NCBI RefSeq assembly: GCF_019059575.1
Contig: NW_024881700.1
Span: forward strand, 248,001 to 312,000
Source: Amphibalanus amphitrite
Taxonomy: Eukaryota; Arthropoda; Thecostraca; Balanomorpha; Balanidae
Reading direction: 5' to 3'
DNA: 64,000 nt
The notes below the pieces were generated by a model. It searched no databases, was not told the origin of the DNA, and saw nothing but the letters and a program-made list of their open reading frames with translations. Both the position numbers and the translations under genes were made by a program. Positions 4,801-62,933 of the stretch are shown here, piece by piece (positions within the stretch are counted from its first letter, which is position 1; every line of letters begins with the position of its first letter).

Positions 4801-7688
4801 AGCTGACTCGCGAGCTGAGGTTCTCGATCAGCAGCCGGTACTCGGTCCTCGTCGGCGGTCCAAACCTGCTGAAACAACCGACCAGAGCGTTACGTGGCTG
4901 TCAAACGCTCTCAGCGAGACCTCGTCTGAATACATGACACCCTACGACAAGGCAATGCCAAACAATACAACACATAGCCTTTGTCACTCGCTGTTTGTAA
5001 GATGGGTAGAAACTGATCCTATTCCACTGACCTGGTGGGTCTCCTGCTGCGTCCTCCTCCAAATCCGCCGCCGCCGCCGCCGCCGCCACGCCAGTCGTCG
5101 TAGCGACGAGACGGTCCACGAGCCGATTCCATCGTAATCCTGATGACACCGACCGCGGTAACGTGTCACAAAGATCGTAAAATCGGGACGAATTGCTGTC
5201 CATACATGACACAATGTGATGTGATTATGTAGTATTTTATGTAAGGTGGATGCTTTATCTATTGTAGAATGATGCTGGAGTTTATTTACATTCAAAATAA
5301 GCCTTGCCCAAAGCATCTCATCATACACATCAGTAACTCTTCTTGCAAAAAAAATTTAGACAAAAGAAAGCACCCTCTACTTAACCCGCGCCCTGCTGGG
5401 GGGTTGACCCCTTGTGGTTTTTCGCGAATATCTAAAAAACGGCGTGGTACACCTTATCACACATCAATTCTACACATGTTGTAAAAATTTCAGACCAAGG
5501 TCATTCAAGGTCAGGTCACCAGGTCACTTAAAGTGACCTCACCTCATAAAAAGTTTCAATGTCTGCCATAGCTACACCGAGTGGCGAGTGACCGATCGCT
5601 TTGAAACTTTCAGCGACTTCTAAGAGCAATAGCATGTACAAAATGTATATCTCAGAATTTTGATATCGATGACCTAAGGTCAGGTCAATTTTGCGACCTC
5701 CCCATTATAAGTCAATGGGAGAAAATTGAAATGCGCCTCTTTTGGACGAAAGACATTATAAACACTCCCAAACACTGAATTACAAGTGGTTAAAGGGACC
5801 CTCCCACCTTAACATTAGTTTTGAGTTGAGATAGCCAAGTTTGCGGCCAGGCTCAGAAACCACCATTTATCCTGGTCGCAACCCCCGCAGCTTTATGGTG
5901 TTCAAGAAATTTCTTCCCTTTACTTGCAGGGTGGGACCAGCGTGGTCCCTATCTCTTAACCATTACGGGAATCTGATGACGTCATCAGGCTTTCGAACGT
6001 CCATTAATTGTTTGACTAAAACGTTTTGTAGCACGCGGTGGTATATGCTGCTTTGCGCGCAACAAATGCCGCACTTTCAAATAAAGTCGCTAGGAACAGC
6101 GGAGATCCCAAAAAGTACACAAAAGTAAAAGTCTAATATCTTGAAAACCGGTGAATATTTTTCGATGAAATTTGGTAGATATTCGTTTTTGCTCTTTCTG
6201 AACCGAGCGACATCACTTTCATGCCAATTCATTAACTTTTTTGAAGGTGGGAGGGTCCCTTTAAGACACACTGAACATGAAAATGGTGTCCGTGACCCCT
6301 GTTTATGCCCCTGAGGTCATCTTAGGTCACGAATGGTATCTAACAGTTTTTCGCAAATAACTTTTGATAGAGGCATGCTAGAGCGATAAAAACGCCTTAG
6401 ACGTGTTTAGCTCGACGATACGGATCGACTGATATGCAACATGACCCTTTCCGGTCAGGTCATGACCTTGACCTGAGGTCAAATTTTCAAGTTGACCTTT
6501 CAAGGTCAAGTTATAGTTCATTCGATGCGCCTTGACGAGAGGAACACGATGCCGGTAAAAGTAAGCTCGTACAAGGCTCGGGTCAAAAGTTATTGCAGAA
6601 AAACTGTTTCCGAAAAAATCGGCTATTTTTGCAGTTTTTGCCCCCTGCAGGCAAAACCGTTGACGTTAGGTCAAATCTGAGAAAATCACTCAGAAAGGGC
6701 GTTAAAAGGGCTATCGAATGCGCTTTTCCGCGGCGCTGTAGCTCTATTGGTTCCCGAGTTATGCGTTGGCTTCTTGGAAATTGTCGACATTCGACCTGGA
6801 AATCGGCAAAATTTTGCCTTCAATGACCTCTGGTGACCTGACCTTTTAACCTGACCGAAAAATTGACCGAAGTGATTTCATCATTATTTTTGACGCTCTT
6901 TCGAACGCCGCCTTCCGCGTATCGCTACGTGGCCCAGGAGCCGAGTTAGAAGGGGGGGGGGGGTGTTCAGACACCCCCCCCCCCAGCAGGGCGTGGAAAT
7001 CCAGGACCCCCAGCCGGGCGCGGGTTAAGATGATTATTGGTTAACTCAAACATCCTCACAAAACACACTACCAGCCATTGCCAATGAATGACATTAAGAG
7101 TATGCATAGAACATACCTTTCTCCCATCAAATCACGGCCATTAAGTTCATAGCAGGCATCTTCAGCATCTCTAGGGTCATCAAATTCCTGAAGACATAAA
7201 ATGTGGATGAGCAACAATTGATAATAATTTATATCTGGATAAAAAAATGTAAAATAATAATAGTTAAACAAAGAAAAAATGTGATAAAGATGTCCAATGT
7301 AACAAATTTCATGTGGACCAATAAACTACCATTCCAAAATGAGCAAGCAATTTAAAAAGTTGAACTACATATCATTGATACATGTTACGCAGTGATGTGA
7401 GATAATATCAGACAGCATTCTGACTTCATCATGAGCACTATGAAAAAATGATACAATAAATATTGCAGCACCTAAGCCAACACCTATCCATTTCTTTATT
7501 CCACATTCATTCCTTCACTAGGTATGATAGGTACCTAGGTATTTAACTATTTAGGTACTTACAATAAAACCAAAACCATTTTTTAAAAGAATGTCTCTGA
7601 GTCTTCCATAGCCCTTGCAGAATCTCTCCACATCCCGCTCTCTGACTCCTTGAGGAAGACCTCCAATGTACACTCTGGTGCCAGGCAT
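1664..7688 (-). CDS. B52: SR splicing factor, B52/SRSF4-5-6 type (nine coding exons)
   Basis: This gene encodes a nuclear serine/arginine-rich pre-mRNA splicing factor that binds exonic enhancers and recruits spliceosome parts. Nine exons (7563-7688, 7117-7187, 5032-5139, 4796-4865, 3371-3444, 2746-2934, 2389-2571, 2068-2130, 1664-1802) join in frame to 340 residues. RRM1 carries RNP2 RVYIGGL near residue 5 and an RNP1-like GFGFIEF at about 39-45. A glycine-rich linker follows at about 84-95. The second RRM has the pseudo-RRM signature SWQDLKD at 123-129, split by an intron. From about residue 187 to the end there is an RS domain rich in RS/SR, KSR and SKD units, ending GADD. Two RRMs with SWQDLKD and a long RS tail place it with SRSF4/5/6 and Drosophila B52 rather than the short SRSF1. 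The order of the exons and their phases was derived by eye from GT-AG borders. A host gene, apparently intact. Confidence 0.93.
2068..2130 (-). CDS. B52: SR factor coding exon 8 (RS domain)
   Basis: A 63-nt exon, residues 274-294 plus two bases of Arg295: [20 protein letters not shown]. It lies in an AT-rich setting and is recognised by the acceptor TTCCCAG, the donor TCG|GTAAGA and frame fit with both neighbours. A second AG six bases in gives an in-frame alternative acceptor. Confidence 0.85.
2389..2571 (-). CDS. B52: SR factor coding exon 7 (RS domain)
   Basis: Residues 213-273 plus two bases of Arg274: [17 protein letters not shown] followed by [15 protein letters not shown] and an acidic/basic mix ending RGRDGSRD. 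Acceptor CCGTAG|CTC, donor ACAG|GTATGA. Confidence 0.9.
2746..2934 (-). CDS. B52: SR factor coding exon 6 (RRM2 end, start of RS domain)
   Basis: Residues 150-212 plus two bases of Ser213. It starts [19 protein letters not shown], runs through [11 protein letters not shown] and passes into RS repeats ([12 protein letters not shown]). Acceptor CGGCAG|TGTGG, donor CAG|GTGAGA. Confidence 0.94.
3001..3062 (+). repeat. SINE-like repeat fragment, GGGGCTTAAGGGCGCGCCGA core
   Basis: Reads TTGGGGCTTAAGGGCGCGCC, then GAC-ACT-GAGGTCATTTTGCGCCCAT. The same core occurs in reverse orientation at 44925-44985, there next to an (AAAC)n tail. Two independent copies with a shared core and a simple-repeat tail suggest a SINE. 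This copy is in the intron between SR exons 5 and 6. Confidence 0.55.
3371..3444 (-). CDS. B52: SR factor coding exon 5 (RRM2, [12 protein letters not shown])
   Basis: Residues 126-149 plus two bases of Gly150: [20 protein letters not shown] and RRGE. The acceptor TCCAG|GAC and donor GAGGG|GTAAGT are strong. This is one of the most conserved segments of the SRSF4/5/6 group. Confidence 0.94.
4641..4670 (+). repeat. Pentanucleotide microsatellite (ACCAG)6
   Basis: Six perfect ACCAG units inside the intron between SR factor exons 4 and 5. Confidence 0.9.
4796..4865 (-). CDS. B52: SR factor coding exon 4 (start of RRM2)
   Basis: Residues 102-125, from [16 protein letters not shown] to SWQ, the first half of the SWQDLKD signature. 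The acceptor is a tandem TTTCAGCAG; the distal AG is used in this model, while the proximal AG would add one residue in frame. Donor CAG|GTGAGT, phase 0. Confidence 0.93.
5032..5139 (-). CDS. B52: SR factor coding exon 3 (RRM1 end and Gly-rich linker)
   Basis: Residues 66-101 plus two bases of Arg102. It opens R-ITMESARG, matching the family's GERVVVEPARG position, then a run of eight glycines and an RSRRPT end. An internal ATG (Met at 5132) is not the start: the frame is open upstream to the TCATCAG acceptor and the phase fits exon 2. The long intron before it (5140-7116) holds a TTAA element. Confidence 0.9.
5385..7024 (+). mobile_element. TTAA element copy E1 with AGGTCA-rich body
   Basis: Bounded by TTAA at 5381-5384 and 7025-7028. 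The left tip is CCCGCGCCCTGCTGGGG; the inverted right tip is CCCGCGCCCGGCTGGGG. After a 15-bp spacer the right side repeats CCCTGCTGGGG, then a G-run/C-run hairpin around TGTTCAGACA. The body starts GGTTTTTCGCGAATA and holds many AGGTCA/TGACCT hexamers. It contains no long open frame, so it is non-autonomous. TTAA plus ends starting CCC fit a piggyBac-like transposition mode, but no transposase is seen. It lies in the SR factor intron 5140-7116, and a second TTAA element is nested in it. Confidence 0.8.
5794..6260. mobile_element. Nested TTAA MITE with perfect 17-bp inverted repeats
   Basis: Left end AGGGACCCTCCCACCTT (5794-5810) and its exact complement at 6244-6260, flanked by TTAA at 5790-5793 and 6261-6264. 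The related copy E2 (about 40240, reverse orientation) runs straight through the corresponding position without this DNA, which makes it an empty site. The 467-bp interior has no convincing coding frame. Confidence 0.85.
7117..7187 (-). CDS. B52: SR factor coding exon 2 (end of RRM1)
   Basis: Residues 43-65 plus two bases of Arg66: [19 protein letters not shown] and MGE. The acceptor CTTCAG|GAA and donor AAAG|GTATGT fit, and joining to exon 1 rebuilds the GFGFIEFDD RNP1 region. Confidence 0.93.
7189..7562 (-). other. SR factor first coding-region intron, nothing else seen
   Basis: AT-rich intronic sequence between coding exons 1 and 2; no repeat or other gene recognised. Confidence 0.6.
7563..7688 (-). 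CDS. B52: SR factor coding exon 1 (start of RRM1)
   Basis: Encodes residues 1-42: [11 protein letters not shown], then the RRM1 helix and strand up to GFGFI. The start is chosen because family members begin a few residues before RNP2. The ATG lies at once after a polypyrimidine-CAG 3' splice site, so the 5' UTR must come from an upstream exon. The donor is ATT|GTAAGT, phase 0. Confidence 0.92.
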
Positions 7689-8275: not shown

Positions 8276-10089
8276 TGAAGCCCCGACGGCGCACAGTGGG
8301 CGATCCGGCCGGTGTAGCCTCGCGAAACCTATCGGCATTCATAACATCCATGTTTTTGAAGCTAGAACCACAATATTTAGGAGCAACCTTCTTGAATATC
8401 CAATGAGCATATGTTTTAAATAAGGACTATCTCTTATAGGATTTGTGCTCTGTGGCGAGCTTGCAATTTGCCTAATTGCTGCTCGAATAACGCATGAATA
8501 CTTTTGAGGGTAGGTCGAAATTTATGACGGTATGAGCTGGGTAGGACATTGAAATGGTGTGTACCTCCGTAGAAAATTGCTTCCAAACCAATTTTTTTTA
8601 TTCAAACAATTATGCCCTACCTATTTATACATATCATGAAACAGCGTAAATCTCGCCCGGCAAGGCCCCATTTCATAACGTGACCCAAGCAGCGGGTTTG
8701 GTTTTTGGCAAATAACTTCGCAAAAATGGCCGCAGAACCACGATTTTGACATCGTCGTGTTCGCCTTGCTCAGGCGCGTCGAATAGTATACTTTTGTTCA
8801 GGTGAGGCCACCGTAAGGTCAACCTGACCTTGACCTCGAGTCAAGGTCAGGTCAGAGGTCTTCAAATCACGAAGTTGGTCGAAGGAGGTCATATCGCATA
8901 TCATTCGATTCGGCAGGTCTTCCGGAGTCCATTGGTGACCTTGTCGACTCTCTAGCTCAATGTGATCGGGAGTTATTGACGAAAAACTCGTATGACCCTA
9001 GTGACGTCATAAATGACGTCATGCAAGGTCAACAATGCAAAAATGCAGCATCAGATCTTGCAAGGAGTGCATGAAGTAACGATTCCATGTACTTGAGACA
9101 ATTGAATATCATTCCTGGCGCCAAAATAACATTTTTCATATTTCCCCATTGACTTATAGGTGAGGTCACGTGACCAACCTGACTTTATGTGACATTTAGG
9201 AAAAATCTGAGATATACAAGTTGTAAGACCTCTGAAGGACAATAAGTCCTGCAAGTCTCACCTCCCTGTGAAAGTTACTCTGGCACTGAGAGCGTTGCAA
9301 GGTTGCGACATCTGAGGATCGTGCAGAGGTTCATGTATGACGTCATAGGTCAGTGACCTGACCTGTCTTGAAAGTGCGATTGGTGTCACAAGATCCAGCG
9401 TGCATCAAAGGCCAGGTATGCCAGGTTGCAGCTCTCTATTGCCTGGGTGTTTTGAGCTATCGTGAAAACACCCTTTGGGGCATTTACCACTTGTGCTCAA
9501 GTGCACCAAGCCACGGCCAACCCTTAGAAGAAAAAAGTGTCTGGATGCCAGGGCTGCAAGTGGCTGCAAATTTTCACTGGCTCCCCTAATAGATAGTGTC
9601 TTAGTGCATGCGATACAGCATTATTTTCAGTTCATCCTCGTAAAACTTTTTTTGCTGGGCTTGGTTAATTCAGTGAACTTAATGTTCAGTGGTAGAAAAA
9701 ATATAAAAAGTTAACCTAATTATAAGACATTTTGAACTGATTTTGTCTACTTGCTTTCTATTGCGGAATCGTCTAAACATCTAAATTTCACTTTCCATGC
9801 AAAATGGATGCTCAACACCTAGCAATTTCATCGTTCCGCAAAATATTCAAAGAGCGTAAAAATCAGCTGTGATTATCCCCCTTATGAAGTGTTACGGAAC
9901 ACCGTCTTTAACGACACTTTTGTCTACGAAAAAATGTCTCCGGAGCCATGCAAATGCACTAATCGTAATCTTTGATGAATTTTCTGTCGACTAGTATGCG
10001 TTGTTTTCCAATTTTCGGAAAAAAGTGTCTTTGAGGTTTCGCGAGGCTAGACCGGCCCGATCGCCTACCGTGCGGCGGTGGCACCGTTT
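8276..10089. repeat. Inner inverted-repeat pair around GGCCGGTGTAGCCTCGCGAA
   Basis: The left arm (about 8276-8332) and right arm (about 10034-10089) are inverted with a few mismatches; both contain AGCCTCGCGAAACCT and GGCGATC. The arms probably mark another element nested in the 7813-11086 unit. No target duplication found. Confidence 0.5.
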
Positions 10090-13414: not shown

Positions 13415-14345
13415 AAGGGATTGTGTGGTGCCTTCGGTACGCCCCTCAAAATCACCCGTGTAGGGCCCTCATGGCCGCCGGTTATGAAGCCTTTGGAGGC
13501 ACTGGTGTGGGCCCTCACAGGTACCGGTGTGATGCTCTCAGAGGCATGCGCCCACAGCGGCACCCAGAGGTGCCGCTGTGGGCCCTCAGAGGCGCCGGTG
13601 AGGATCCTCACAGTTGCCGTTGTGGGCCCTCAGAGACACTGCAGTGTGGGGTTGTCACAGTCGGGTGTGGGACCCTTAGAGCTGCTGGCTCGAACCCTTT
13701 ACAGGCCGACAGGGGCTCTCAGAGACCGACAAGGGGCTCTCAAGAGGGGTCTGCGGTGCCTTCGGGAGCCCTGTGGAGTCCTTAGAGACCAGCAAGGTAC
13801 ACTCAGACGCCAGTGGGGCCCTCAGAGTCGTCGGTGTGGGGCCTCAAAAGTCACCGGTGAGTGGCCATCCGATGTGGCTCCGGCGTTGAGCCCCCAGAGC
13901 CGCAGATATATGGCCTTAAGAAGTACTGGTTTCGGGACCTCATTCAGGGGTGCCGGTTGCACTCAGAGGTGGCAGTGTTGGGCCCTCAGCTAGGCACCGG
14001 TGTGGGGCATTCACAGCCGCCGGTGAGGGCCCTCGCAGGCGCCGTTGTGGGGGCCTTCAACCATTGGTTTAGCTGGTCATCGCAGGCGTGTGTGGAACCT
14101 CAGAGCTGCTGGTCCCTGATAGGCCGGTAAGGGCCCTCAGAGTCCGGCAAGTAGCCCTCAGAGGTCGCCTAAGCCCTGAGAAGCCGGCAAGGAGCCCTCA
14201 AAGGCCAACAAGGGACACTAAAAAGCCGGTGTGGGGCTCTTATGGAGATAAGTGTGGCTCTTCGGAGCACATAAGGTGTTCTTCCGAGCCCTGTGGGGCC
14301 CTTCTGAGTCGAAAGATGCCAGCATGGACCCTCAGCCGCCAATTG
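13415..14345 (+). repeat. GC-rich degenerate array A (GGCCCTCAGAGRCCGG units)
   Basis: Dozens of imperfect copies of a short unit with GGCCCTCAGAG followed by a variable GCCGGTGTGGG-like part. The same unit type builds array C (about 56900-57440) and a related one builds array B (36440-37140). The long open frames here (143-190 codons) are by-products of a repeat poor in AT, not genes. Confidence 0.75.
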
Positions 14346-16204: not shown

Positions 16205-19200
16205 CTGCGGAACACGGTGAGTCGGATACATCAGGCGCGATTGACGGCAGGTAGGTAATGTCGCTGCACTGAATTTAAACTCGGGAGCACTCGCATGAAA
16301 TGGCGTACGGGGCGGTTCTTTGGGGACAAACAGCGACTTTATAGCTCGATCGAGGCCTAGTCCTCATCCGCGTACAGATGCGGGAAAGGGCCAGGTATCG
16401 CTAAACTGAAACGGTGCCACAATTGCGGCGTCAACGGTACGGCAACCATACACCTACTTTTGTAGTCACTGCACTGTCGACGTGGATAAGCGAATCTCAT
16501 TTTTACAGTTTGGGAGTCGTTCACTATATGAACATCAATATACGTACCAACAAACTTGACTAAAAATGTACAAATGTTCACTTGATTAAAAAAGCGTTAG
16601 GACTTACCCACAAAGACAAGGTCGACCAAATTCGGCAGCTCGTTCAGCTTTGTGAACTCCGACCAATCTTTGACGATGTTATTTGACATGTACAAGACAG
16701 CAAGTTTTCTAAGTGCGTTGATCCCTTTCATTCGTTCTATATTATTGTAAGAGATCCAGAGTTCTTCCAATGTATCAGCAACGACCTCCTGAAAATGCAT
16801 AATTAGAGCCATAATTAGAGCTTGTTTTGTTGGGTTAGGCCTAATTGGTCTGTTTAGACCATTTAGGATCGTGGTTCTAGTACCTTAGAGAGGATAAAGT
16901 GGTGGCATTTTGAGGTGAGCGGACCAACGGTCGTGTGTCGCACTCACAAACACATTTTTTCATGTTTATTTTCCAGACCCTGAGGAAGCTATTGCCTAAA
17001 GCCTGTTAAAGCCAAACATCGGGCAATTGATGAGTCTATTTTTTAACGATTAACAACTAACGATTTACGATTCGACATTTTATGACCAGTTCTAGAGACT
17101 AGAATAACGATTTACAAAAGCTCTTCGCTGCATTTCCTTTCTCGACTGAACCGATTCCGTCTTCGAAGAGCGTTTCGCCTGGGACGGGACAACCAGTCGT
17201 TAAATGGTTAACCCTATTCCTGGCGGGGGGGGGGGGGCCTCAGGAGCCCCCCCCTGAGGTTTTTTGGTTATATCTCCCAAACGCGTTGAGCTAGGAAGCT
17301 CAAATTTTGTGACTTTTCCTAAAAGGCTTCTACGCAACGTGTCTGAAAATTTTGAGTTGATCTGACCTCAGGTCAGGTCACCAGAGGCGGTTTGGTGACG
17401 CTACCTCAGAAAAGTTTGCAATCACACCAGAGCTAGAGTTTTTGACCGATCAATTTCTTCTCTTCAGGGTTTAGTTAGGGTACCAGTATGTGCAATTTGT
17501 ATATCTCGGAATTTTGATATCGGTGACCTAAGGTCAGGTCAATTTCGCGACCTCCCCATTATAAGTCAATGGGGGAAAAATCAACTCCCTGTTTTTACCA
17601 CTAAAACGGGTCGGAATGGCCCCATATACCATACATGACTTCATATACGATCAACCTTCACTACCTTGAGGTCTGTTTTGCTGTTGGGCAGCTGTGAGGT
17701 CATGTGACGTCATCAAAGGTCACCAAAGGTTTTTGGCCAATAACTCCGTACAGGAACAAGATACAGACGCGTGGATGGTCTCATTGTGTTCAGCTCGTCA
17801 AGACGCATCGAATGATATACATGATGACCTCGAGGTCACGTGACCTGAGGTCAACCTATGACCTTGACCTTTCGAGGTCAACATATATATCATTCGATGC
17901 GGATTGACGAGAGGATCACGATGATGCCCTTAGTTTGTTCCTATCTTGACTAATTCGAAAGTTATTCGAGAAAAACTCTCCATATCTAGTGCCGCCATTT
18001 TGACTTTTTCGACCCCTGTGACGTCATCTTTGACCTGACCTGAAAATGACCTTAGTAAAAATTGTAGATCTTGGCCGTGCGTATCCGATGCCGTTTACCG
18101 CTTGTCGCTATCTTGCTTCGTTCTCGAGATCTCAGGGGGGGGGGGGCCGAATCGGCCCCCCCCCCGCCAGTTTCTTGTCCCGGCGGAGCCCGCCAGGAAT
18201 AGGGTTAAAACGGCCACCCCGAAGGACTACTCGTTCCCGCTGGAGCTGCCATCCAGGCTCCATCGGTTGTCCGGGTACAGTGCCAGTCAGTCCGGAACAG
18301 GATAAGCTTGCGTTCGGCATCTGGAAAATGAGGGATAATTTACCGGGATCACCGGTAATTATTTGGTATTGCAGGGACCATCGATGCAATTAGTCAAGTT
18401 TTTACCGGTAATTATTTGGTATTGCAGGGACCATCGATGCTTGCCTCGCTAATGGTTCCGTTGTAATGTCTATTGTCCGTTGTTGGTCCGTTGTGCACAT
18501 TGACAGCCTAAAATACCGATTGATCCCGGTGTTCCGAGAAAATTATCACTCATTTTCCAGATGCCGAATACACGCCAAGAATGATAGTGTGCTTGAGAAG
18601 AATGGAGTAAGCTGAAGGATAAGAACGGGTTAACACTGATGATTTAGAGGACCGATGTGGTTTCTCGCTCGTCCAAGGAAGAGGGCCGTTACAACTCTTT
18701 GATGTCTTGATTGATTGCTTGATTGTTTGATCTCGTTGATAGCCGAAACTACAGCACCGAGCAAGCCAAACATTAACTGGGCTGTGACCGCTGTAACACA
18801 TTGTTCTTGTTGACGCTAAAGAGCAACGAAGGGCGAGGAGGCATGGCATATCTCAAGTCATCAATGCACACGCTACACCACTCCATGAGAACAGCACGGA
18901 AACATCAAAACGAGAATCACAGCACGAAAAAAATAACGATGGTTATTATATGCGACCACAAATGAGCGACTGGTTCATCAGTAACTACCCGTTATTCATT
19001 TGTAGCGATAACTGGTGAATTTGTGCAACACTCCATTGCTCATCGACATGCATATTGCATATACTTACTAGGCCAGTAAAACTTTTGATGCAATTCCGTC
19101 CCAAGGAGAGTATCTTCAGGTTCTTGAGGGCATTCAGGTTTGCAATTTTTTCAATGGCGTTGGTTGAAAGCGACAGTTTCCTGAAAACATTTCTTGAATA

Positions 19201-22200
19201 TATTACCAAACATTTTATTGCATCTACAATAACGACTATTTATAGGTACAATCGCTTAGAAACGCAACGAAATCGGAATTTTTAATTTTGCGGGAAACGA
19301 AATATATAACCGAGACTTTATTGGTTGGCACACAAAATAGTAATTGAGAGCAAGCAAAATGAGTCACTATAAAGAATAGACACTCACAGCGGCGTATTTA
19401 GAAAATCGCGAAGGGGGGGGCCAAGGGTTTGGAGGGCGCCACCTCACCCAAGGAGGGCGCCATACGGTCGCGAGATAAAAAATCACTCAACGGGGGGGGG
19501 GGGGGTTGGGAGGCGTTTTTTACCATGCCACCAGTTTTTTTTTGCGTAACCTCGTATAGGTCGTGCTGCATTGATTTTGCATCGTGTGTATTCTTTATAC
19601 TCCAGGTCACAAAAGGTCAAGTGGTCTTGAAATGCTGCGCCGAAGGCGCGCGAAATTTTTGAAAACAACCTTTTCCTCCGCTTTTTAGGCACGCCTTTTA
19701 TACGATCACTGTTCAAAGCTCCTCTCGCTCTTTTACCAAATTTGAAGGTATAAAAAATACCTAAGGTTTGGTCGGGCCGCTGCCACACAAACTGTATAGA
19801 AAGCTTGGCTCATGGGTGTCGATGTATAAAAGTTTATTGGCGGTGGCATATCTACGCACCAGATCACCGTATCGGATTGATACCGGAGCGCGAGATGCGT
19901 AAACATCATCCAAATTACCTCAGACCAGCCTTCATAGCCTTCTCACAGGTGCATACAGTGTACCCACATAACCAGTTTCAATCACCGAAACTTCAGATGC
20001 CTGCTGTTGCGGCCGAACCTGTTGACAATACTTAATCGTAATACATATAGATGCCATGATGCACGTAAAGTAGGATCAATCCGTTAAGACCAAAGACGTG
20101 TTTTATGCATCGTAGAGCGTAGATAGTTTTGGTAGGTATAGGTACTTCATTCATTGTGCTGAATGCACGTTCATTTGTGGCAGTTTTCACAGGCAAGACA
20201 TCAACTATGTGCAATAGAACGACTAAGTTGAAGAACATGCCAAAGGAGTAAATAAATGATAGGAGGGCAGCGATCAACGGATGTTGCCAATAGGTAGAAG
20301 GGCTGCGATCCACAGGAGGGCGCTAATAGGTAGAAGAGCCCCGATCAACATCCCGAGTTTCGACAGTAGGGCACCGATAGGTAGGAAGTTGGCGAGCAGC
20401 AGGAGGGCGCCAATGGATAGAAGGGCAGCGATCAACAGGAGGGCACCAATAGGTAGGAGGGCCCCGATCAACAATCAACAGGAGGGCGCCACCAGGTAAG
20501 AGGGTGGCGAGGAACAGGAGAGCACCAATAGGAGGGTGGCGATCAACAAGAGGTCGCCAATAGGTGGGAGGGCGGTCATCAACTGCAAGTCGCCAATGAG
20601 CGGAAGGGTGACGATTAAAATGGGGGTGGCAATGGTGAGGAGGGCGCCTTTGCTCAAGAGGATGACACGAACAGGAGGGCGTCTGTGCGGAGGGCGCTGG
20701 TCAACAGGAAGGTGCCAGTAGATAGGAGGGCGGTGATCAACAGGAAGGTGCCAGTGGTTAGGAGGGCGGCGATCAACACGAGGGCGCCAATAGGAGAAGG
20801 GCCCCGATTAGCATTCAACAGGAAGGACTAGGGAACCAATAGGTAGGAGGGCGGCACTGAACAAGAGGGTGCCAAAAGGGAGAAAGGCGGCCTTCAAAAT
20901 TTCACATGAGGGCGCAATAGGTAGAAGAGCGCCAATAATTATGAGGACGCCGATCAGCAGAAGGGCGGCAATGTGTAGCAGGGTGGCGACCTACAGGAGG
21001 GCGCCTTCGGGTGAGAGGGCGCTTATTTACAGGACAGCGGCTTACATAGGCGACCACCGTTACGCTTAGAGAGCTACAGCCTACAAATGTGGTTGGAGGG
21101 CGCCCGAGGGAGCCCTCCAAGCGTATTTGGAGGGCGTATTTGGAATGGGCGTCCTCCGAGGGCGCCTTCCATCCGTATTTTCCCTGTAAACACATTCGCG
21201 ATTGGAGGGCGCCCTCCAGTCGCGATTGTTTTTCGATTCGATTATATCACAATTGCATTTGCGATTGGAGGGCGCCTTCGGCGCCCTCCAATCGCAAAGG
21301 GCGCCTTCGGCGCCCAAGGGGGGGGGGGCCATGGCCCAGTGGCCCCCCCCCTGCCTACGCCCCTGGACACTCAGAAAACACTTTGAGAACATTTTTGAAT
21401 AAGGGCTCATATGAGTGCCAAAACAGGGCTCAAATCTGTATGATTTTAAAATCGGGATCAGTTAGGCGCCCTTTTCGGGCTCAAAGTACATTAGCCCCGA
21501 AAGCGGCATCAGTTCGTCTTCCTTTTCGGGCTCAATTCGAGCTGCGTTTTAGGGCTCCATACGACATTCCGCCATTCCGTCTTTTGCTGTTTTCAGTGCC
21601 ATGTGTTGGTGTACCTACCGCCGTGATTTCAAAATGAATGGTAAGTTATTAGTTATCAGTTATCGCTATCTTTTAGAAAAAATCAAGATGTTGATGCTCA
21701 TGCCATTTTAATCCCTTATCAATTAAAATTGTGGTGGCATTTGTTCAGAAAAGGTCTGATCTACAATTGTGGCGCCGTTGATACGAATACGCACGGGTTT
21801 GATTATTCGTTTTTCTTGTATTTGCGCCACATGAAAGCATCATATCTGGATTCAGGATGTCAAATAGTGTAAGAATGTGCAAAAATTTTGTCTGGTTCTT
21901 CGTGATGATGTGATTGAAGCAATGCTTTCAAGGGTAGGTAAGGATTTTGTTACTTGTTCGTAATGGTTATCTTGATGCTCAACTAAAATTAATCCTAATC
22001 TTGCCTACTAACCTATTAAGTTAAACTTAGTACCAATACCTACCAACCTACAACCTATTTGGATCTTTCATATACTTATAACATGCTGCTGCTTCTGCTA
22101 ACATGCTGCGGAATGCTGGTTGACATGATGGAATGCTGGTATGACAGTGTTCCATGTTTCAGAATTTTAGGTGAATAACCTGTGGCGTGATACCGGGGTC

Positions 22201-25200
22201 GTGGTATCCCGTCCCCGGCGCCGATGTTAGAGACGGTACCTGGTCCGGGCTGTACCGGGCCCCGGACTGTACCGGGCCTCACTGTCAGAGGCGGGACGAC
22301 AGGGGGTCTGGGGACGGAAGGACCGGGTGGGCTCTCGCGCTGTGTGACTGGGGGTGTGCGGTGGCCCGTCTCGCGTGTGCAGTGGCCCGTTTCGCGCTAT
22401 CGGACGAATACAAGCTATTTCGGCCTTACCATGGCTGGAGACGAGGTGCCATCAGTGTCCGCGAGTGCAGTGAGCGCGGGTGCCTTGGACGTCCGCGTGA
22501 TAGCGGAGTTTGACGGCACCACAGACGTGGTAGAGTGGTGGACCCGCGCGGAACTGTTGTGCGCCCACCGTGGCGTGGACTTTGGAGCGGTGGTCCCCCT
22601 GCGTCTCACCGGTGGAGCCTTCGCCGTGTGGGCTCAGCTGCCGGTCGATCATCGAGCCTCCCTGGCAGCCGTCAAGTCTGCCCTCTTTGCGGCGTTCGCC
22701 CTGGACAGCTTCGCGGCTTACGATGCCTTCGTCACTCGTCGTCTTCAGCCGGGCGAGTCCGCCGACGTCTACCTGGCGGACCTGCGGCGGCTGGCTGAAC
22801 TGTTCGGTGGCGTGCCGGACCGGACTCTGTCCTGTGCATTCGTGAACGGGCTGCCGGACGCGGCAAGACAGGTGATTCGCGCCGGCTCGCGCGCCGAGGC
22901 GTTGGACCTTCCCAGCGTGGTCGCGCGAGCGCGCGCCGTCCTCAGTGACGACCGCGTGGCAACGGTGGCGGCGGCGACGGCAGCGCCTCCACGCGGAGGG
23001 GGCGGAAACCGCGGTGGAACGCAGGACGCGGAGGCGGTGATGGCGGCGCGCGTCCCGAGACGGCCGCGCTCGCGCCGGTGCTGGGCGTGCGGCCGGCTGG
23101 GCCACCTGGCGGCCGGCTGCCCGCAGGGAAACGGCACAGGGAGCGGTGCGTCAGCGCCAGCGCCGTCTCCTGCGCAATAAGAGGAGCGCTGCCCATAATC
23201 AGGTTGCCGCTGAATGGAGGACTACGAGACGTGCTTGTCGACACGGGTTGTACGCATAACCTCGCTCACGTGGACATTTGTGATCAGTGGGACCGGCAGC
23301 GCTTGCTGATCACGACAATGGGTGGTCACGCTGTTCAGGCACTAGGCGTGGGAGTCGTGACGGTTGGCCGCGTCGGTGGCGACAGTGTCTTGCCTGTGGC
23401 GCGCCCAGGTGGTGTCGCGGGGGCGGCAGTGCGCTCGGCCCCGGCTACGCAAGGACACGGCGGGGCAGTGGCGCAGCCAGGCGAGGCGCCGGCGGCGGCG
23501 CGTCCAGCCCGGGCGGCGCAGGTGATCGGCGGGACAGTGGGGCGCCCAGGCGGCGGCGAGGCAGCGGCGGCGGGCCCGGCCCGGGCGGCGCAGGTGATCG
23601 GCGGGACAGTGGCGCGCCCAGGCGGTGGCGAGGCGGCGGCGGCCGGCCCGGCCCGGGCAGCGCAGGCGATCGGCTGTGTAGCGGCGCGCGCAGGCGGCGG
23701 CGAGGGAGCAACGGATCGCCCCGCTCAGGCAGGCCAAGTGACCGGCGGAACAGTGGCGCGTCCAGGCGGCGCCAAGGTGGCGGCGGTGGAGCCGGCCAGG
23801 GCAGCCTCGGCATCGCGCGGAGAGGGGGCGGGGCTTGGTAGCGCCGCAGCGACTGCGTCACAGGACCCGGCCGGCCCGGCGACCGGGCACACCATGCCCG
23901 GGCCCAGAGTGGGCGGGGCACCCACCGCGGAGCTAGTGGCCGACGCGAAAGACTTCACGGCGAGGTTCGATGTTAATACACGCAGTTGGACAGTGGCCTG
24001 GAAGTGGGCGGACGGAGTCGCACCAGACTGTCTGACCAACCGGGTCGCCGAGTACCGCGTGCCACCGTCAGCGCGGCAGGAGTATGACGAGGAGCTCGAG
24101 ACGTGGCTGAGGAACGGCTGGCTGCAGCCCTACAATGAAGCAGAGGACGGTCCGCCGCGCGGCCTCGTGCCCTTGATGGCCGTCCCACAAGCAAAGAAGG
24201 TGCGCCCTGTACTGGACATGCGAGAGCTGAACGGTCACGTAGCTGCATACACCGCCGACTCGGACGTGTGCGCCGACCGCCTGCGGAAATGGCGCCGCCA
24301 CGGCCGGCGGGTGGCCGTCGTAGATCTGCGGCGAGCGTACCTGCAGCTGCGTCTCGACCGGAAGCTGTGGCCGTATCAGACAGTGATCATCCGTGGTGAG
24401 CGATTCTGTTTGACCCGCCTTGGTTTTGGACTTAATGTAGCGCCGGCCGTGATGAAGGCGGTGGTGCGGCTCGTCATGGCGCAGGATGCAGCAGTGGAGC
24501 GCGCCGTCTGTCCGTATGTGGACGACCTGCTTGTGGATGAGGCTGTCGTCAGTGCTGAGCACGTGATCGAGCACTTTGAGCGTTTTGGGCTCGAGTGCAA
24601 GCCACCGGCACGCGCCGAGGACGGCGCTCGGATGTTGGGACTCCACGTGCGGCGTGTGGCGGGTGAGCTGCGGTGGTCTCGTGACAGTGCTGTCCCCGAC
24701 CCGCCCGACCGTGTGACGCGCCGATCGGTATTTGCATGGTGCGGCAGGCTGGTGGCGCACCTCCCCGTCTGCGGCTGGCTGCGACCCGCCGCCGCCTGGG
24801 TGAAACGGCGCGCCAATGCCGTCACGCGCGGCTGGGATGACGTCACGACCGACGCGCTCCTGCAGTCTCAGATCTCACACGTGCACTCCCGGCTGCTAGC
24901 GGCGGACCCGGCGCGGGGCCAGTGGTGCTGGACCGGGGATCAGGCAATCGTCTGGACAGACGCCAGCTCGATCGCGGCTGGAGTGGTCATCGAGACACCG
25001 TGCGGTGGCGTGATGGAGGACGCCTGCTGGCTCCGGCCCGGCGATGCAGCAGCGACCCACATAAACATGGCCGAATTGGATGCCGCCGTTCGCGGCTTGA
25101 ACCTGGCCGTGGCGTGGGGCGTGACAAACATCGACCTAAGGACAGACTCGGCGACAGTGCACCGCTGGGTGGACGACGCGCTCAGCGGCCGCGCCCGCCT

Positions 25201-28200
25201 CCGGACGAGAGCGGCCGGTGAGATGCTAATCAGACGCCGTGTCGACCTCATTCGACAGCTAGCCAACGAACTGGAGCTCAAGGTCACCGTCACGCTGGTT
25301 CGCTCGGAGGAGAACCTCGCCGACGCCCTGACGCGAGTGCCGAAGGAGTGGCTGCGTGACGAGTGTGAAGAGAGCAGGATGTCGGTGATGGCTGATGACG
25401 GAGCCGGCGACTCGGCCGCCCGTGGGCAGGTGGTCGTTGGTGCTGGTGCAGCAGATGCCGTCAGGTCGTCTGTGCAATCGGTGCACGAGCGGGCCGGTCA
25501 CCCTGGCGTTCGTCGGACGCTGTTTTTCGCGCGGCGAGATGTGTCTCGAGACGTGACGAGGGCTCTGGTGCGCGCGGTCGTGACGACTTGTGATGTGTGC
25601 CGATCGATAGACCCGGCGCCTGTGCGGTGGCGGCACGGCTCGCTAGAGGTGGCGGCAGTATGGGAGCGCGTCGCGATGGACGTGACCCACCACCAGGGGC
25701 GGAGCTACCTAACCGTCATCGACTGCGGGCCCACGCGGTTCACCGTCTGGCGCCCGCTCGGCCGTGCCGACGCAGTGGAGGTCACCGGCCACCTGGAACA
25801 GATCTTCCTTGAGCGCGGCGCGCCCAAAGAAATACTGGCGGACAATGACACGGTGTTTCGGGGCCGGCGACTCGCCTCGCTCGTGGCACGGTGGGGCATT
25901 GCCCTGAGATTCCGCGCCGTGCACGAGCCGGGCGGCAATGGCGTAGTGGAACGGTGCCATCGAACTGTCAAGGTGATCGCGGCTAGGAGGCGGTGCCCTG
26001 TGTCCGAGGCCGTCCACCTCTACAACGTCACTCCTCGTGACGGCCGGACGGCGGACACCGCGCCAGCGGCCGGGGTGTACCGCTACGCGGTGAGAGACTG
26101 CGTCCGCCCAGGGCATACGCCAGTCGATACCGACGGGGATGGTGCCCATCCTGCGCCAGCGCTGACTCAGCCGACCGACACCCGGCTCCGGGTAGGGGAC
26201 CGTGTGTGGGTGCGGCGCCGCGGCACCCGCTGTACCGAGACGTCTCAGCGCGGGACGGTTACGGGCGAGCTCTCAGAACAGGTGCTGGAGGTGGACGGCG
26301 TTCCGTGGCACGTCCGTAACCTGCGACCGCGGTACGAAGCGTCCTCGGACAGCGGGGATGACAGTGAAGAGGCCGACGAATCGCCGCCACTGCTCGTTGG
26401 CTCCCCGCCGGCCGCACTGCGAGCTGAACATGACGCGCTGAACGGGGCGGCGCCCCCCGATGAGCCACAGACTGAGTCACACGGGATAGATGGGACGGTG
26501 CCGCCTGGCGAGGGGTCGGAACCGTTTTCGACGGAAGGGGAGCCGGCGGAAGCGGCAAATATCCCCCCGCCCCGTCACAGTGAGCGTGCCCGGCGACCGC
26601 CGCCGCCGTGCAGCTGCTGCACCCAGCCGGAGTGATGACTCTTACGTGAGCGGTGAGCACATGTGCGTTTGATATTGCATGATATTGTGTTGTTTGTTTG
26701 TATTGTTTGTATTATGTGTTTGTATTGCCGTATCGTGTGTTTGTATAATTGTATGTATGATTCTTGAAAATCAGGGGGAGGTGTGGCGTGATACCGGGGT
26801 CGTGGTATCCCGTCCCCGGCGCCGATGTTAGAGACGGTACCTGGTCCGGGCTGTACCGGGCCCCGGACTGTACCGGGCCTCACTGTCAGAGGCGGGACGA
26901 CAGGGGGTCTGGGGACGGAAGGACCGGGTGGGCTCTCGCGCTGTGTGACTGGGGGTGTGCGGTGGCCCGTCTCGCGTGTGCAGTGGCCCGTTTCGCGCTA
27001 TCGGACGAATACATAACCACACATGATGGGGAAAATGTTTTCATCCTAAAAATATGACAAGTGGCTTTATTTCATCTTTGCTAAAAAAATATGTCAAAAG
27101 TTTGATTCAACAGCCAGCTGCCAGGTTACGCATGACTTGACAGTTGATGCATCTACTCTACATCATTTCATTTCAGATCCTGTGAAGGTTCTGACAAAAT
27201 CTGAGGTAAAAATCGCATTATGCAGTTTTGCGGAAAGACTAAATCTATCTCATTTTGTCTTCAGATTTTTTTTTATTGGGACACCCAATTGAAATCCAAT
27301 TTTAGAAGACTGTGACACCATGCCTGTGTGCCAAGTAAGAGGAAGGGTCTACAAGTATACATCAAGATAACCAATTATGGACAAGTTGAGACTTGAGTCA
27401 TGAGCTCTTATTTGTGGTTACAATACCTTCAACTGCATGATTTTGCACAACTTCCATACAGGCATCCAGACTGGAAAAGGTTCAAGTCCATACTTATTCT
27501 GGTGCTTGAATATGGCAGTTCAAAGATGGAAGGCATATGATGCTACAAAATGAAAAAATAATTCAACTTACAAAAAATAGGTACCGTAAAATGGGGTGTT
27601 AAGGGACAGTGGGGTGTTAAGGGACAGTTGCATGAGAAAAACTTTGAGTCATATTAACTTCCTAATTTGAGAAGGTTCAATAAAAACTTCAGTGTGGTAG
27701 TTGACACTGTTTTGCTCTTGACCATAGGAGAAAATGGTATGGTTTTTCATGCAAGTAATTTGGTTCAAAAATGGATTTGAAAATCAAGCTACATTTTCAC
27801 AAAATTGAAACATCTCCAAAACTCTGTGTGTACCACATAAACTAGTGGGTGTACAGGGAAAATGAATGCATAAGTGTATTGTCACATGTATTGCACATGT
27901 TTCCTGAAAAACTTGTGCAAATCCACCCATTCATTTATCATCCTCTTCCTCTTTTCCGGATACATGCATATTTTGAGGTGGATGTGGGGTGCCAAGGGAC
28001 AGGGAAGAAAAAAAAATAACATCTAAATATAATTTAATTAAGTAGGCATGGAAAACACCAAATTCCACATAAAATGCTGGCGAGTTTATGCTTTTATCTC
28101 TAACACATCTTAAGTTATGTAACAAAACATCTCAACACTCTCTTTTACAATGATGGGTCAATGGAGACTGATGTAGGTAAATGTGATGTCATCATAAATA

Positions 28201-31200: not shown

Positions 31201-34200
31201 TCGACCGGCTCTCCGGCGATTTGTGGTCAGAAACGCCGCCGCTTCTGGGACCAAGGTGTCAGAGCGCGGCGCTGCCCGTGAGACGTTAAGTTAGCACAGG
31301 CAATGTCGTCTGCACTCCTTGCAGTTCATGTTGAATACACAACCATGTTGCGAAGTAATAGGCGCCGGGTTTTTCAGTTCATAGAACTTTTTCCCTGGCT
31401 ATTACACCCCACAACCGAACACTGACACCTTGCACAAGTATGACTGTGTGTATGAATGTTAATAAATACATGAACCAATGTTGTGTTTTCGGTTCCAGTA
31501 CCTTCTTTGGGCACCTCGGCAACAAGTAAGTAATCCGTTAGCTTTGCCACACCTAAGATAGGCTCCCACGTTGTTATTTGCTCCCGGGTTAACATAAACC
31601 GGTTTAACGTAACTTTTGCATCCCGGCCAAAATTGCCGGTTAACTGTCCCACCGCTCGAGACTGGCGCTAGGCTGGCCGAGCAAAAAAAAAAGTTTGTCC
31701 GCGGCTTCGTCTTATTCGCAGCTGCTGGACACGGGGGAGGGGGAGGAGGGGCCGCATCGGACGAAAAGCGGGCTCTGGTATTAACTGGATTTTTTGCCAG
31801 CTGGCGCCGTATGGTGGCGCTAGCAGAGCTTCTTACATATCAATGCTAGATATAAAAGAATGAATATTTACCAATCAATTTTTCATTTAAAGCCATTTGA
31901 AATATTTATGTCCATCCTACTACCGCGCTTAGGTATATCTAAAATTAAATACCTTTCGTGCGTCGCCAGCTGGCCAGCCAGCTGACGCAATCCAGCTTTT
32001 ACCAAAGCCCCGAAAAGCGATGACGTGAGCCCTAATATTGGCTTCACCACACAATTTGAGCCCTCAAACTGGAATCAGGTGAGCTCGAAAATGGGGATCA
32101 GGCTGAAAACTGGTATCATAGTGAGACTAGTTTTAGAGCTTGACACCGATAATGGGTACTGACTGAGCTCTGTTTCTGCGATCAATGATACCGATTTAAG
32201 GGATCGTATGAGCCCATGTGGCGCTAGCTCAGAAAGTATTCTCGAAATGTGCTGTCTGTTTTGAATATGGTACATTAGCCCGAAAACTGGTCTCTGAGCC
32301 CGAAAATCGGGACACTGTTTTCTCAGTGGACGGTCTCGATCAATCCGTGGAGTCGATCGAAAATAAAGCAACAATCCTGCAGCGCTGTTCCATTTCGACC
32401 GAGCGACAGACATCCTTTACAGGACTTTTCTACTGTGCGAAAGCCGTCCCGGACCAAACTATTCTACAGAACGATAATCGTCTGAAGGACTATTCTACCA
32501 AACGATAGTCGTCTCGGACAGTACTTTTTTACCGAACGATAGTCGTCTTGGACAAGACTATTCTACCGAACGATAGTCGCCACGACAGGACTACGAGTAT
32601 TCTACTGAATGATGACTGTATGTACCCTTAGAGCAAAGGTACCGTTTCGTCGTATGTATGTAAATAGCGGCCGTTCCACGGAACACTAATTGTCTGTCAG
32701 TCTCATTCCTTCCACCATGAAGGACGGCCGTTTCACCGAGCGATAATTGTTCGACGGTACTGTTCTGCCGTATCTATGTGAAATCTATCGTAAAGAACCG
32801 CGGTTTATCCGAACAGTAGCTGTCTAACGGTAGTCAACTGATGTCAATTCCAGATACCTACTTTGGAAACCGATACCGACCGAAGTCATTAAACAATACC
32901 AAAAACCAAACGAGCATAAGATATTGAGAATTTATCAGATTAGATCATCGTATTCACTATCGAGGCTTCATAACAACTAACAAACATGCCTAAAAAATGC
33001 AAATTTTGAAATAACAAATATCAAGGTCGTTTCGGTTTGGTATCGGCATGTCGGTGCCGACACCGGTTTGATTTTATCGTTAGTATCGGTTTTGCGGCGT
33101 TAGACTATTATTCCGTGGTATCGGTAAGTGTAACCGATTGATATTACTAGACGTTACCGTTCACCGAACATGTTTGACGGTACCGCTTCACCGACGATTA
33201 CTGACGAGGGGCGATACTGTTCTGGCACCGAATAAACAGAGGCCGTTCCATTGAACGGTAACTGTTTGACGGCGGTTGGTAACGTTCTATCAAAAAGTCC
33301 CAATCAGTGAACGAACATAAAATGGTAATTCGCTCAGCGGTCCCGTTTCGTGTTCATAAGTCAATGCATACATAAAAAACTAATCAACCCAGAAGATAAT
33401 TCAATAAATCTAAAATCACACAACTCAATACAAATAAAATGACTAGCTGCGGCCATCTAGCGATGTCTGTGCCCAATGCCAATCGATGCCGATTCCACTC
33501 GTACTGACTGGCAGCAGACGAGCTGATTGAGCGCCGAGTCCATCTTCTCGATCGAGGGGAACATGCCGTTCAGCTTGACCTCGGCGGATTCAGCTGCCTT
33601 TTTGCCAGTCTTCTCCTCCCACAGCCGAAGTGCCTCCTTTATCATCATACTTGTCGCGCTGCAATTAAAACGGAGACAATTACACTACGATATATTTAAC
33701 AATGATCTCACCGAAATTTGTTTGGTGCCAACTTTATAGTCACACAGTGCCTAAGCGGCGTTCGAAGTGTCAAAATCATATGAGGAGAGTACCTCAGTCA
33801 TTTTTCGACCAGGTTAAAACAATATTGGTTAAAGGAAATAGTTCACTTTTAACATGGGGGTTTTGAACTGGATTAGGGGTTCCGTAGCTTGAGCTGAGAC
33901 AAGCACAAATCAGGAGCTTTTACGGCCCAACGATCAGATCACCCTAGGCAAAGATATTCCATTTCTCGTCCAGAAAAAGGTGCCTTGCTGAGGAATGTGT
34001 GCCTTGCAGGGGTCAATTCCCTCTTTTAACCCGCGAGTTGCTGGGGGGGGGGGGGGCGTTGAACGCCCCCACTTTTTTCGCCGCGCTATAGCATAAAAAT
34101 GCGCCAAATTCTAGGTACCTGTAGGGAATTTATTGAAGTTTGTTGTGCCAGTTTCAAAAAAAAAAAAAATCGGTCGGAAAAATTTTGAGATATTGAGGTT

Positions 34201-37200
34201 TTAGTGACGTCATGATTTCTGAGTTTTCAACCAAAAACGGCATATGTTCAAAAAATCATATAAGATCACAGAATAGACATACAGACATCGCGGCGCTGTT
34301 GGTCTAGTCTAGTGCAAGATCTAGTGGCTCCCGAAAAAAATGGGCAAAGTTTTACCTTTGATGACCTTTGGTAACCGGACCTTTGACCTGACCTAAAAAA
34401 AAATGGCTGATGCACCTAATTTCGTCATTTTTAACGTTCTATCGAGTGCCGCCTACACGTGGCCCAGGAGCCGAGTTAGAAGGGAGGGGTGCTCTGCTCA
34501 CCCTCCCCCGCCCCAGCGATGTTCTTTAAACTACTCCCAGCAGGGCGTGGAAATCCAAGAGCCCCAGCGGGGCGCGGACTCCCGATTTGAGGTCGTCGTT
34601 ATGGCTTCTGATTCTCCTATGTGGATAAACGTTTCAGAATCTTGTCACTCTCATCAGCTGCCGACAGTTCCAAATCGCTAATCGATCACTAATCGCAGCT
34701 ACCTAATCGCTTAGTTGATATAGCTTAGCTGCGACTTGGCTGCGACGGGCATTTAGGTACCTACTTTTTTACGGTGAGGTCACGACGTGACCTGGTGACC
34801 TGCAGTCAGAGTCTTGCACTGACCTGGGCCTGAAAATTTCACAACAAACAGGCGCATCATAAGGCATCGGAAAATGATCCCGCTTTTTAAATTTCACAAA
34901 GGGGGGGGGGGCGAAAACTATCTCTAGGAACATTGGTGAAAACCAGAGCCCCCGTCGAGGCTAGTGCCTGGCAAGTACGGCGCCGGGCACCGGCAAGGGT
35001 GCGGCAGAGGGCAACAAACAAGTAGGTACAGGGTGTCCCAAAATTAATGTCACACCCTCCCACAACCTTTGTTTTGCCTTCTACTGCGCAATGTCAATAC
35101 AATGTCACCGGTACTGGCTCCCATACCATATTGGCTGCATTCTAGTCACGTGACCTTCGAATTTTTGCGACCCTGACCGGTCAAGGGGTTACGGAGGTCA
35201 TTTCCGGGGCAGTACCCAGCGCGCGCGGACCAGGTGTCCAGGATGGCGAAACTGCAGAGCAAATCGCCCCGCAGCGGGGCAGTCGGCATGGTTGCTGGTG
35301 GCATGACCCACGGCCAGGTCGCCGAGGTACTGGGCATGAGTTGTCGCACGATTTGGCGCTGGTTATCACGCGACAGAAGCGGATAGACGCCTGGGAAGGA
35401 AGACTTCCGCCAGCCGGGTATAGCGCAGATCGTCATCGCGAAGTGCGGAGCTAAAGACGGGCTTATCCACAAGGAAACTGGCAAGGAGGCTGATTCATCC
35501 AGCCTTCAAATTGATAATCCATCGGTACCGGAGGATGTCTCTAAAGCTTAAGCCCAACAATGCCACGTTTCCAGCCAAAAACCTCTGCTGAACATGCCCA
35601 GGGCCATCTTTCAACAAGTCGGCGCCCCGGCTCATCGAGCTAGAACGACGAAGGACTGGTACAGTACAGATCGAACTTCCCAGCATTCTGGGAGGACAAT
35701 TCGGTGAATAGCCCCGACCTGTCGCCGATAGAAAATCTTTGGGCGATCGTCCTGTAACAGGTAAGCAAAACGGCGTTAGGATAACCTGAACGCACGCTGA
35801 CCAGGAACGTTCGATCTCTCTGGTCCAAGATGATAAGATCAGTCCACAGAAGCTGGACATGTTGATGTCTGATGTCCCGGACCGTATGCTTGCCCGCATC
35901 AGGGAGAAGGTGGGATGCATATGTAAGAAAAGTGCGCCTCTGCCCTCTCATGATTGTTATTTTCATGAAATTGACGCTGGGAAGGTGTGACGTTATTTTT
36001 GGGACACGGCAAGGCTATATAAACCAGGTAGAACGCTCCCGACGAAAAAGTGGTGACAAGCGATAATTAGTAGCCGCGACCTTTTTTTGTTCAAAACTGT
36101 ATCCGCAAGCAGCATTTACAGGCTAGCGGAAATCGACCAATCGGCGTTCGGCAATACTCAACGCTGATTGGCCCGATGCTCGTGACGAAATTGCGGGGGA
36201 CTGCAGCTATTCCCCTATGGCGTTTAATAGACTTACGGCTTTTGAAGGGGATTTATACCAGTTTTTGTTGGGTTTGAGGCCATTTTTGAGCTTGGTTATT
36301 CTTTCTGTGACTTTTGACTGTGTAATAACGGCATTTAATCATAACATTTCTATATACTACCGGTGTCACAACGGCCTAAAAGACCGTAAGTACATGGGAT
36401 AGACGGACCACTGCTGATGGGGCCACACTTGCCGGCGTGTGGTCATTGGAGGCCCATGAGGGCTCGACATAGGCCCTTCATGGGTCGGTATAGGCCCGGT
36501 GGGTCCAGTGCAAGCCCATCAGGGGCCGGTGCTGACCCAACAGGGCCCAGTGGCATATAATGTAAGGCCGTCTAGGGACGTTGAGGGCTCATGGGGGCCA
36601 TATAGGACCATTAGGGACCACATAAGCCAATCAGGGGCCCATTTAGGCCAATAAAGGCACTTCAGGGGACTCGAAGAGGCCATCTAAGAGCCGTGGTGGG
36701 GCCATGAGGGGACGGCATTGGTCCATCAGGTGCAGTCAGGGGATGTTGTACGGGTTTCTCAGTGGCCCATTTGGGCATATCAGTAACCAATTTAGACCCA
36801 GCAGGGGGCTTTGTAGACCTATCAGGGGCTGGTGATGGTTCATCAGGGGCCAGCGTTAGTCCATCGGGGCACGGCATATGCCCATCAGAGGTAATTGCGA
36901 GCCCACGCTGAACAATGATGGCCCTTCAACGGCCCCTAATGGATCTACATTGACCCATGGGCCATGATGTGTCATGTATGCCCCTATGACAGGCCTACTC
37001 AGACCCCTGATGGACGTTCCCGGCCTCTGATGACCCTATACTGAATGCTGATGGGGCTCTAAGAGTCTCCTATAACCCTTCGTCAACCCATTATTACCAT
37101 GCGCTGGCACTAGGGGCCCCACATCAGCCGCAGGGCAGTCCGTGCCATGACAGCATGTCTTTTCGGCCGATATTACATCGGTAATATTTATTAAAATCAT

Positions 37201-38195: not shown

Positions 38196-38210
38196 GAGAA
38201 ACGCAAAAAT

Positions 38211-62933
<24,723 letters not shown>

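Follow-up and report, generated by a model that had tools for sequence, protein, structure and literature searches.

We analysed a 64-kb window (the whole stretch of 64,000 nucleotides, positions 248,001 to 312,000 of contig NW_024881700.1) from the genome of the barnacle Amphibalanus amphitrite. The window holds four TTAA-bounded elements, here called A, B, C and D, whose tips carry short matched sequence motifs (tags) that differ between copies. With high confidence, we consider them to be non-autonomous piggyBac-like elements with subfamily-specific ends, among which at least one body exchange has taken place.

Four TTAA-bounded elements and their tags

In a scan of ends, pairs of TTAA located 60–4000 bases apart were retained if at least 16 of 20 end bases matched. 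Five pairs emerged, namely A, B, C, D and an element nested in A, which bears out the four copies of the initial annotation. The first 20 bases of one end match those of the other at 20 positions in D and B, 19 in A and 18 in C. TTAA is present on both sides of A, B, C and D. Both tips of every element start with CCC, followed by G in A, C and D and by T in B, so that only B satisfies the CC[C/T]T tip form (PMC2872659). No stop-to-stop open reading frame (ORF) of at least 110 amino acids lies inside A–D; a single ORF of that length (18034–18393) overlaps the right end of B. Rfam, applied at the gathering threshold, returned 0 matches in the window. The window also contains three degenerate relatives, E, F and G, and in copy E the tags, read by eye, match only partially. 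The elements are as follows:

5381–7028, + strand: element A, non-autonomous piggyBac-like, body type 1, given from TTAA to TTAA; holds the nested TTAA element 5790–6264
17208–18208, + strand: element B, a mosaic with a foreign shell around a D-subfamily body, tips CCCTATTCCTGGC
39479–40674, − strand: element C, body type 1, inverted
40733–41749, − strand: element D, body type 2, inverted; its subfamily has at least 40 copies, 98–100% identical over a 446-base query
34026–34577, + strand: degenerate copy E, TTAA lost at the right tip
34605–34935, − strand: fragment F, from a left arm
8686–9490, − strand: old copy G, tips not recognisable

The element nested in A has 20/20 matching end bases (TTAAAGGGACCCTCCCACCT), and its AGGGA tips are reminiscent of Kolobok/T2 miniature inverted-repeat transposable elements (MITEs).

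Read in one orientation, each of A–D has the order TTAA-CCC-tag-palindrome at its left end (LE) and TTAA-CCC-tag-spacer-tag-palindrome at its right end (RE). We defined the tag as the 11 bases at LE bp 7–17. The outer tag of the right end, starting at RE bp 7, agrees with the left tag at 10, 10, 9 and 11 of 11 positions in A, B, C and D, respectively. The inner tag, which starts at RE bp 34, 33, 33 and 34 in the same order, agrees with it at 11, 9, 9 and 10 of 11 positions. Palindromes lie behind the tag at both ends, the left one of A being degenerate. The three occurrences of the tag that the initial annotation had seen in every copy are therefore present in A–D, but over bp 7–17 the outer tag is exact in D only, with one mismatch in A and B and two in C. 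The 15–18 bp spacer proposed there narrows to 15–16 bp when measured from one 11-bp tag to the other at the double end. The doubled tag, described as always lying on the right, does so in A and B, whereas window coordinates place it on the left in C and D; since these two are inverted, it is nonetheless always at the same end of the element. The individual tags are located as follows:

5391–5401, + strand: A, left tag, LE bp 7–17
7008–7018, − strand: A, right outer tag, RE bp 7–17
6981–6991, − strand: A, right inner tag, RE bp 34–44
17218–17228, + strand: B, left tag, LE bp 7–17
18188–18198, − strand: B, right outer tag, RE bp 7–17
18162–18172, − strand: B, right inner tag, RE bp 33–43
40654–40664, − strand: C, tag of the single-tag end, LE bp 7–17
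39489–39499, + strand: C, outer tag of the double-tag end, RE bp 7–17
39515–39525, + strand: C, inner tag of the double-tag end, RE bp 33–43
41729–41739, − strand: D, tag of the single-tag end, LE bp 7–17
40743–40753, + strand: D, outer tag of the double-tag end, RE bp 7–17
40770–40780, + strand: D, inner tag of the double-tag end, RE bp 34–44

Among the 24 possible pairings, the one that keeps tags within their own copy is the best both for the outer tag (52 matches, the next best pairing having 48) and for the inner tag (37 matches); 1/24 is the smallest value attainable with four copies. For the outer tag, this result restates the inverted repeats of the copies and leaves the origin of the match unaddressed.

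Relationship to piggyBac ends

The tips of Trichoplusia ni piggyBac are CCC, and the barnacle elements resemble that transposon (LE35/RE63) in combining such tips with a TTAA target. The resemblance extends to the architecture of the ends. The T. ni right end carries a 17-bp insertion and a duplicated motif, RE bp 34–63 being almost identical to LE bp 7–35, and LE bp 17–33 constitute a palindromic internal repeat at which a dimer of the C-terminal domain binds (PMC7351741, Chen et al. 2020). Just as in the ends described there, the barnacle left end has a single motif and a palindrome, whereas the right end has the order motif, insertion, motif, palindrome; the right-end repeat starts at bp 34 in T. 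ni and at bp 33–34 here (PMC7351741). The layout is thus the published piggyBac end layout and is not new. On the other hand, the motif and palindrome sequences of the barnacle elements are unrelated to those of T. ni piggyBac and variable, their palindromes are G/C runs, and there is no transposase gene inside.

As for the features of a non-autonomous piggyBac element, the barnacle copies have a 4-bp target duplication that is mostly TTAA, CCC tips, asymmetric ends of the T. ni type in the same register, and a palindrome after the motif at both ends. The encoded DDD transposase that would mark an autonomous member was not found in A–D, where no ORF reaches 110 amino acids. A published survey of A. 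amphitrite recognised five piggyBac types, three of them with an intact transposase and one possibly active; MITEs were left out of that survey (PMC10813416). In our literature search, which covered subscription journals little, we recognised no paper describing these barnacle elements.

The TTAA target is also used by other superfamilies, e.g. Kolobok and Sola3. The elements could accordingly belong to one of these, with ends that have come to look like those of piggyBac by convergence. Such an origin would agree with the use of TTAA elsewhere, with the lack of a transposase in the elements found and with the AGGGA tips of the element nested in A, which resemble those of Kolobok MITEs. However, CCC tips and an unusual asymmetry between the left and right ends, with the same register, agree with piggyBac (PMC7351741), and we regard another superfamily as unlikely.

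The D subfamily and the mosaic structure of element B

Near-identity between B and D extends over 17493–18143; on the right it reaches GAGATCTCA and enters the G run of the hairpin there, and outside this tract the two elements differ. Accordingly, B can be divided into the following parts:

17212–17484, + strand: foreign left tip, hairpin and left arm of B
17493–18143, + strand: exchanged tract of B, near-identical to D
17498–17573, + strand: 76-bp box, 91–100% identical in all six A–D pairs
18144–18204, + strand: foreign right hairpin loop, inner tag, spacer and tip of B

In the body beyond the box, B and D are identical at 556/561 positions and A and C at 626/742. The four cross-type body pairs reach 63–65%, not far from the 59–61% for shuffled sequence under the same scoring, although their local scores are far above those of shuffles (z 35–47). 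The left arms group differently: those of A, C and D are mutually related (z 22–63), whereas the left arm of B is an outlier (z 6.9 to D, 9.5 to A and 11.9 to C). A first estimate of left-arm identity, based on a gap-permissive alignment, was discarded, shuffled sequence having scored 0.72. Judged by these comparisons, left arm and tips group D with A and C, while the body groups D with B. The initial annotation had described B and D as near-identical bodies with other tips and spacers. This description is accurate as far as the bodies, tips and spacers go, but about 280 bp of left arm in B are foreign as well, so that B and D differ beyond their tips.

How much variation is typical of D itself can be seen from its copies elsewhere in the genome. 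A whole-genome search with 446 bases of D (left arm plus left tip) gave 1875 first-look candidates, of which 40 were scored; all 40 proved to be D copies, covering the whole query at 98–100% identity. The remaining 1835 candidates may include other tag or body types. Thirty of these loci, window D (L003) included, were examined. Both ends are kept in 29/30 copies, the right end being lost in L023. TTAA is present on both sides in 26/30, and three more copies have another matching 4-bp duplication (TCAA in L009, GTAT in L016 and ATAA in L028).

Substitutions relative to the D consensus amount to 0/390 cells in the left tag, 10/390 in the right outer tag, 20/449 in the spacer, 7/267 in the right inner tag, 69/7050 in the left arm, 6/2400 in the box and 127/16648 in the body. 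L023, with its lost right end, accounts for 8 of the 10 outer-tag changes, and without it the count is 2/377. The spacer (0.045) and inner tag (0.026) vary more than the body (0.008), an excess that stems partly from a shared AGTACC/CGCACC variant and from L023. Because the left end is inside the query, its constancy is partly selected; the right end is outside the query. Within the D subfamily, then, the constancy of the tips is similar to or higher than that of the body. With tags near-fixed there, the annotated pattern of tips being less constant than bodies holds between subfamilies and fails inside this one.

Measured against the same consensus, B differs in its body tract by 7 substitutions over 650 positions, of which three sit at the left edge, and by a 2-base deletion also present in one D copy. 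The D copies themselves have 0–14 body substitutions, with a median of 4 (30 copies). By this measure, the body of B is a D-subfamily body falling within D's own spread. The position of B in a body tree had weak support and was not relied on.

These data bear on whether exchange is needed at all. In plain subfamily divergence, tags and bodies would have mutated together, B and D being an extreme case. Tags do follow the body inside the D subfamily, which the initial annotation had named as the sign of ordinary divergence, and A and C differ in their tags with bodies 626/742 identical. B breaks this rule: its body is 99% identical to D over about 560 bp and lies within the D-subfamily spread, whereas its left arm is near shuffled similarity and the edge between the two is sharp. 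Such rate differences along a non-coding element are implausible, making divergence without exchange an improbable account.

The initial annotation had itself offered two origins for the matched tags, either copying of tips from one end to the other or movement of a conserved cargo between terminal modules. Homogenisation within a copy would leave every copy matching itself, and tags indeed match better within than between copies (1/24, n = 4). Yet a second A-type copy (L023:154-1360), 92.7% identical to window A, keeps the left/right tag difference of window A, so that the A subfamily retains this difference in two copies. Likewise, outer-tag changes at the right ends of L004 and L029 have no counterpart at the left end. 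Moreover, the D tag is common to the whole subfamily and not private to a copy, and the foreign left arm of B is left unexplained by the copying of tips. We therefore consider homogenisation very improbable. Movement of the cargo is supported in the case of B, whose body is inside D variation and whose shell is outside it.

The preferred explanation, piggyBac-like elements with subfamily-specific ends and a body exchange in B, can be put in mechanistic terms. The tag would be the tip motif bound by the transposase. The single-tag end corresponds to the piggyBac left end (tip, motif, palindrome), and the piggyBac right end, with its tip, motif, spacer, repeated motif and palindrome, has its counterpart in the double-tag end; the G-run hairpin occupies the place of the palindromic internal repeat. 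We propose that the need for one transposase to recognise all three tags of a copy is what makes them match. Tag types would then represent subfamilies, each presumably served by a different transposase, and the bodies, which do not code for a transposase, would not be bound to one set of ends. B would have gained its D-subfamily body most likely through gene conversion or template switching during gap repair. The left junction is located just before the 76-bp box, and the right one falls within the G run of the right hairpin. Donor and acceptor have the sequence at each junction in common, which is what conversion or template switching would lead one to expect. Since B is inside D variation, transfer of a D body into a B shell is the simpler direction of exchange.

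Several observations weigh against this explanation. The related piggyBat, a member of the same superfamily, is without this repeat pattern (PMC11707139), so that the superfamily cannot be defined by the layout. The piggyBac assignment rests on anatomy, as a transposase with these tips was not seen. In sequence, the G-run palindromes are unlike that of T. ni piggyBac, and A, as noted, has a degenerate one at its left end. Regarding the exchange, D copies were picked by their D shell and the sample holds no second copy with a B shell; B is the single mosaic found, which does not fix the direction and frequency of exchange.

Comparable cases are known from other systems. The CMITEs of the coral Acropora are piggyBac MITEs with differing terminal inverted repeats (TIRs) and a highly conserved shared internal region, and one CMITE copy holds the internal region of another family (PMC2872659). 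Like CMITEs, the barnacle elements are TTAA-flanked and piggyBac-related, and their TIRs differ around a conserved interior (B versus D, and the 76-bp box in all four). Unlike the barnacle elements, CMITEs are about 100 bp long, and repetition of a tag is not among the features given in the accessible text (PMC2872659). The suggestion in the initial annotation that no described family has this layout thus gives way on two sides, to the published piggyBac ends (PMC7351741) and to CMITEs as piggyBac MITEs with different TIRs and a conserved body (PMC2872659). A direct relationship was not apparent: when the 60-base CMITE consensus was compared with both strands of A–D, 20/200 shuffles scored as high in the best case, and kinship with CMITE bodies through a shared CCCCATTGAC word was rejected as not above shuffles.

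In Galileo of Drosophila (P superfamily), 12/170 copies were reported to be chimeric, and a chimeric origin was proposed for one subfamily (PMC3573991). Ectopic recombination or conversion has been proposed to generate new subfamilies (PMC3573991, PMC4168063). Sequence exchange between subfamilies is thus shared with Galileo, which differs in belonging to another superfamily and in having long foldback-like TIRs. Moreover, the target duplications of Galileo chimaeras, as described, do not match, whereas B has TTAA on both sides. Formation by gap filling or by FoSTeST has been described for Pack-TIR elements (PMC8277862). There, too, the interior of a TIR element is replaced between its ends, through template switching at short homologies; according to the same source, the filler is host sequence, whereas B has taken up the body of another, related transposon subfamily.

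We also looked at the flanks of the 30 D loci, where 8 further tips were not D-type by the word used. They include the changed tag of the D copy L029 and three A-type tips (one in L005 and both ends in L023). Two neighbouring elements, at L007:2509 onward and L019:28 onward, have new tags, CCCTAGAACGCC and CCCTCGCCCTGGC. Just inside the hairpin, they contain a D-like left-end stretch (87% over 62 bp and 74% over 103 bp, respectively), past which blastn gave no match to A–D at E 1e-5 within the flanking sequence covered. These two cases suggest a large group of related ends that may be combined with various bodies.

It is conceivable, if rather doubtful, that end switching is a habit, with bodies of non-autonomous piggyBac-like elements repeatedly entering new end modules. 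Left tag, right outer tag, spacer and right inner tag would then move as a matched set recognised by one transposase, and a successful body could come under another transposase while itself staying the same. Homology hinges would be provided by the conserved box and the G-run hairpins. The neighbours in L007 and L019 fit such a habit; one clear mosaic is not yet a pattern.

Searches outside the barnacle, in collections where little was expected, added nothing further. The body pattern had 0 matches in IMG/VR (viruses) and the box pattern 0 matches in GTDB genomes (prokaryotes). The tip pattern was present in two IMG/VR contigs (L001 and L002), and no element was seen in the 301 bases around each match.

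Other features and wider meaning

The elements are rich in the words AGGTCA/TGACCT; AGGTCA is the nuclear-receptor half-site. Each of A–D has 18–20 of them, adding up to 77 of the 141 in the window; shuffled sequences have means of 0.46–0.74 and a maximum of 3 (200 shuffles each). When the words were hidden from the aligner, they coincided between body types in 34–37 columns, compared with null means of 5–7 and a maximum of 25. The idea that the words are conserved above their surroundings was dropped: between body types, again with the words hidden, word columns stood at 0.52–0.53 and others at 0.65–0.68. Seven such words cluster at 54361–54560, outside A–D and the degenerate copies, possibly marking an unrecognised relative. 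In addition, a long imperfect palindrome of about 148 columns is situated mid-body at 17781–17924 (and 41019–41162), with 78% identity to its own reverse complement (74% in D).

The remainder of the window contains several unrelated features. An LTR (long terminal repeat) retrotransposon occupies 22181–27013. Its 232-bp LTRs are identical, Pfam detected its pol domains, and over 601 residues the pol sequence shows 100% identity with a protein predicted for A. amphitrite. An exon of a protein phosphatase 2A B56 regulatory subunit is located at 62718–62936. Self-comparison revealed internally repetitive stretches at 13465–14234, 20258–21005 and 23396–23805.

Taken as piggyBac-like, the barnacle elements indicate that the puzzling asymmetric piggyBac right end, described in detail for a single moth element, is found again in a barnacle, in the same register but with quite different motif letters, and that the geometry of the ends may be kept while the letters recognised change. 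The B/D pair offers a clean and recent case in which a transposon body has changed ends. Should cases of this kind turn out to be common, they would provide a natural series of matched transposase-binding sites from which the evolution of piggyBac specificity could be read.

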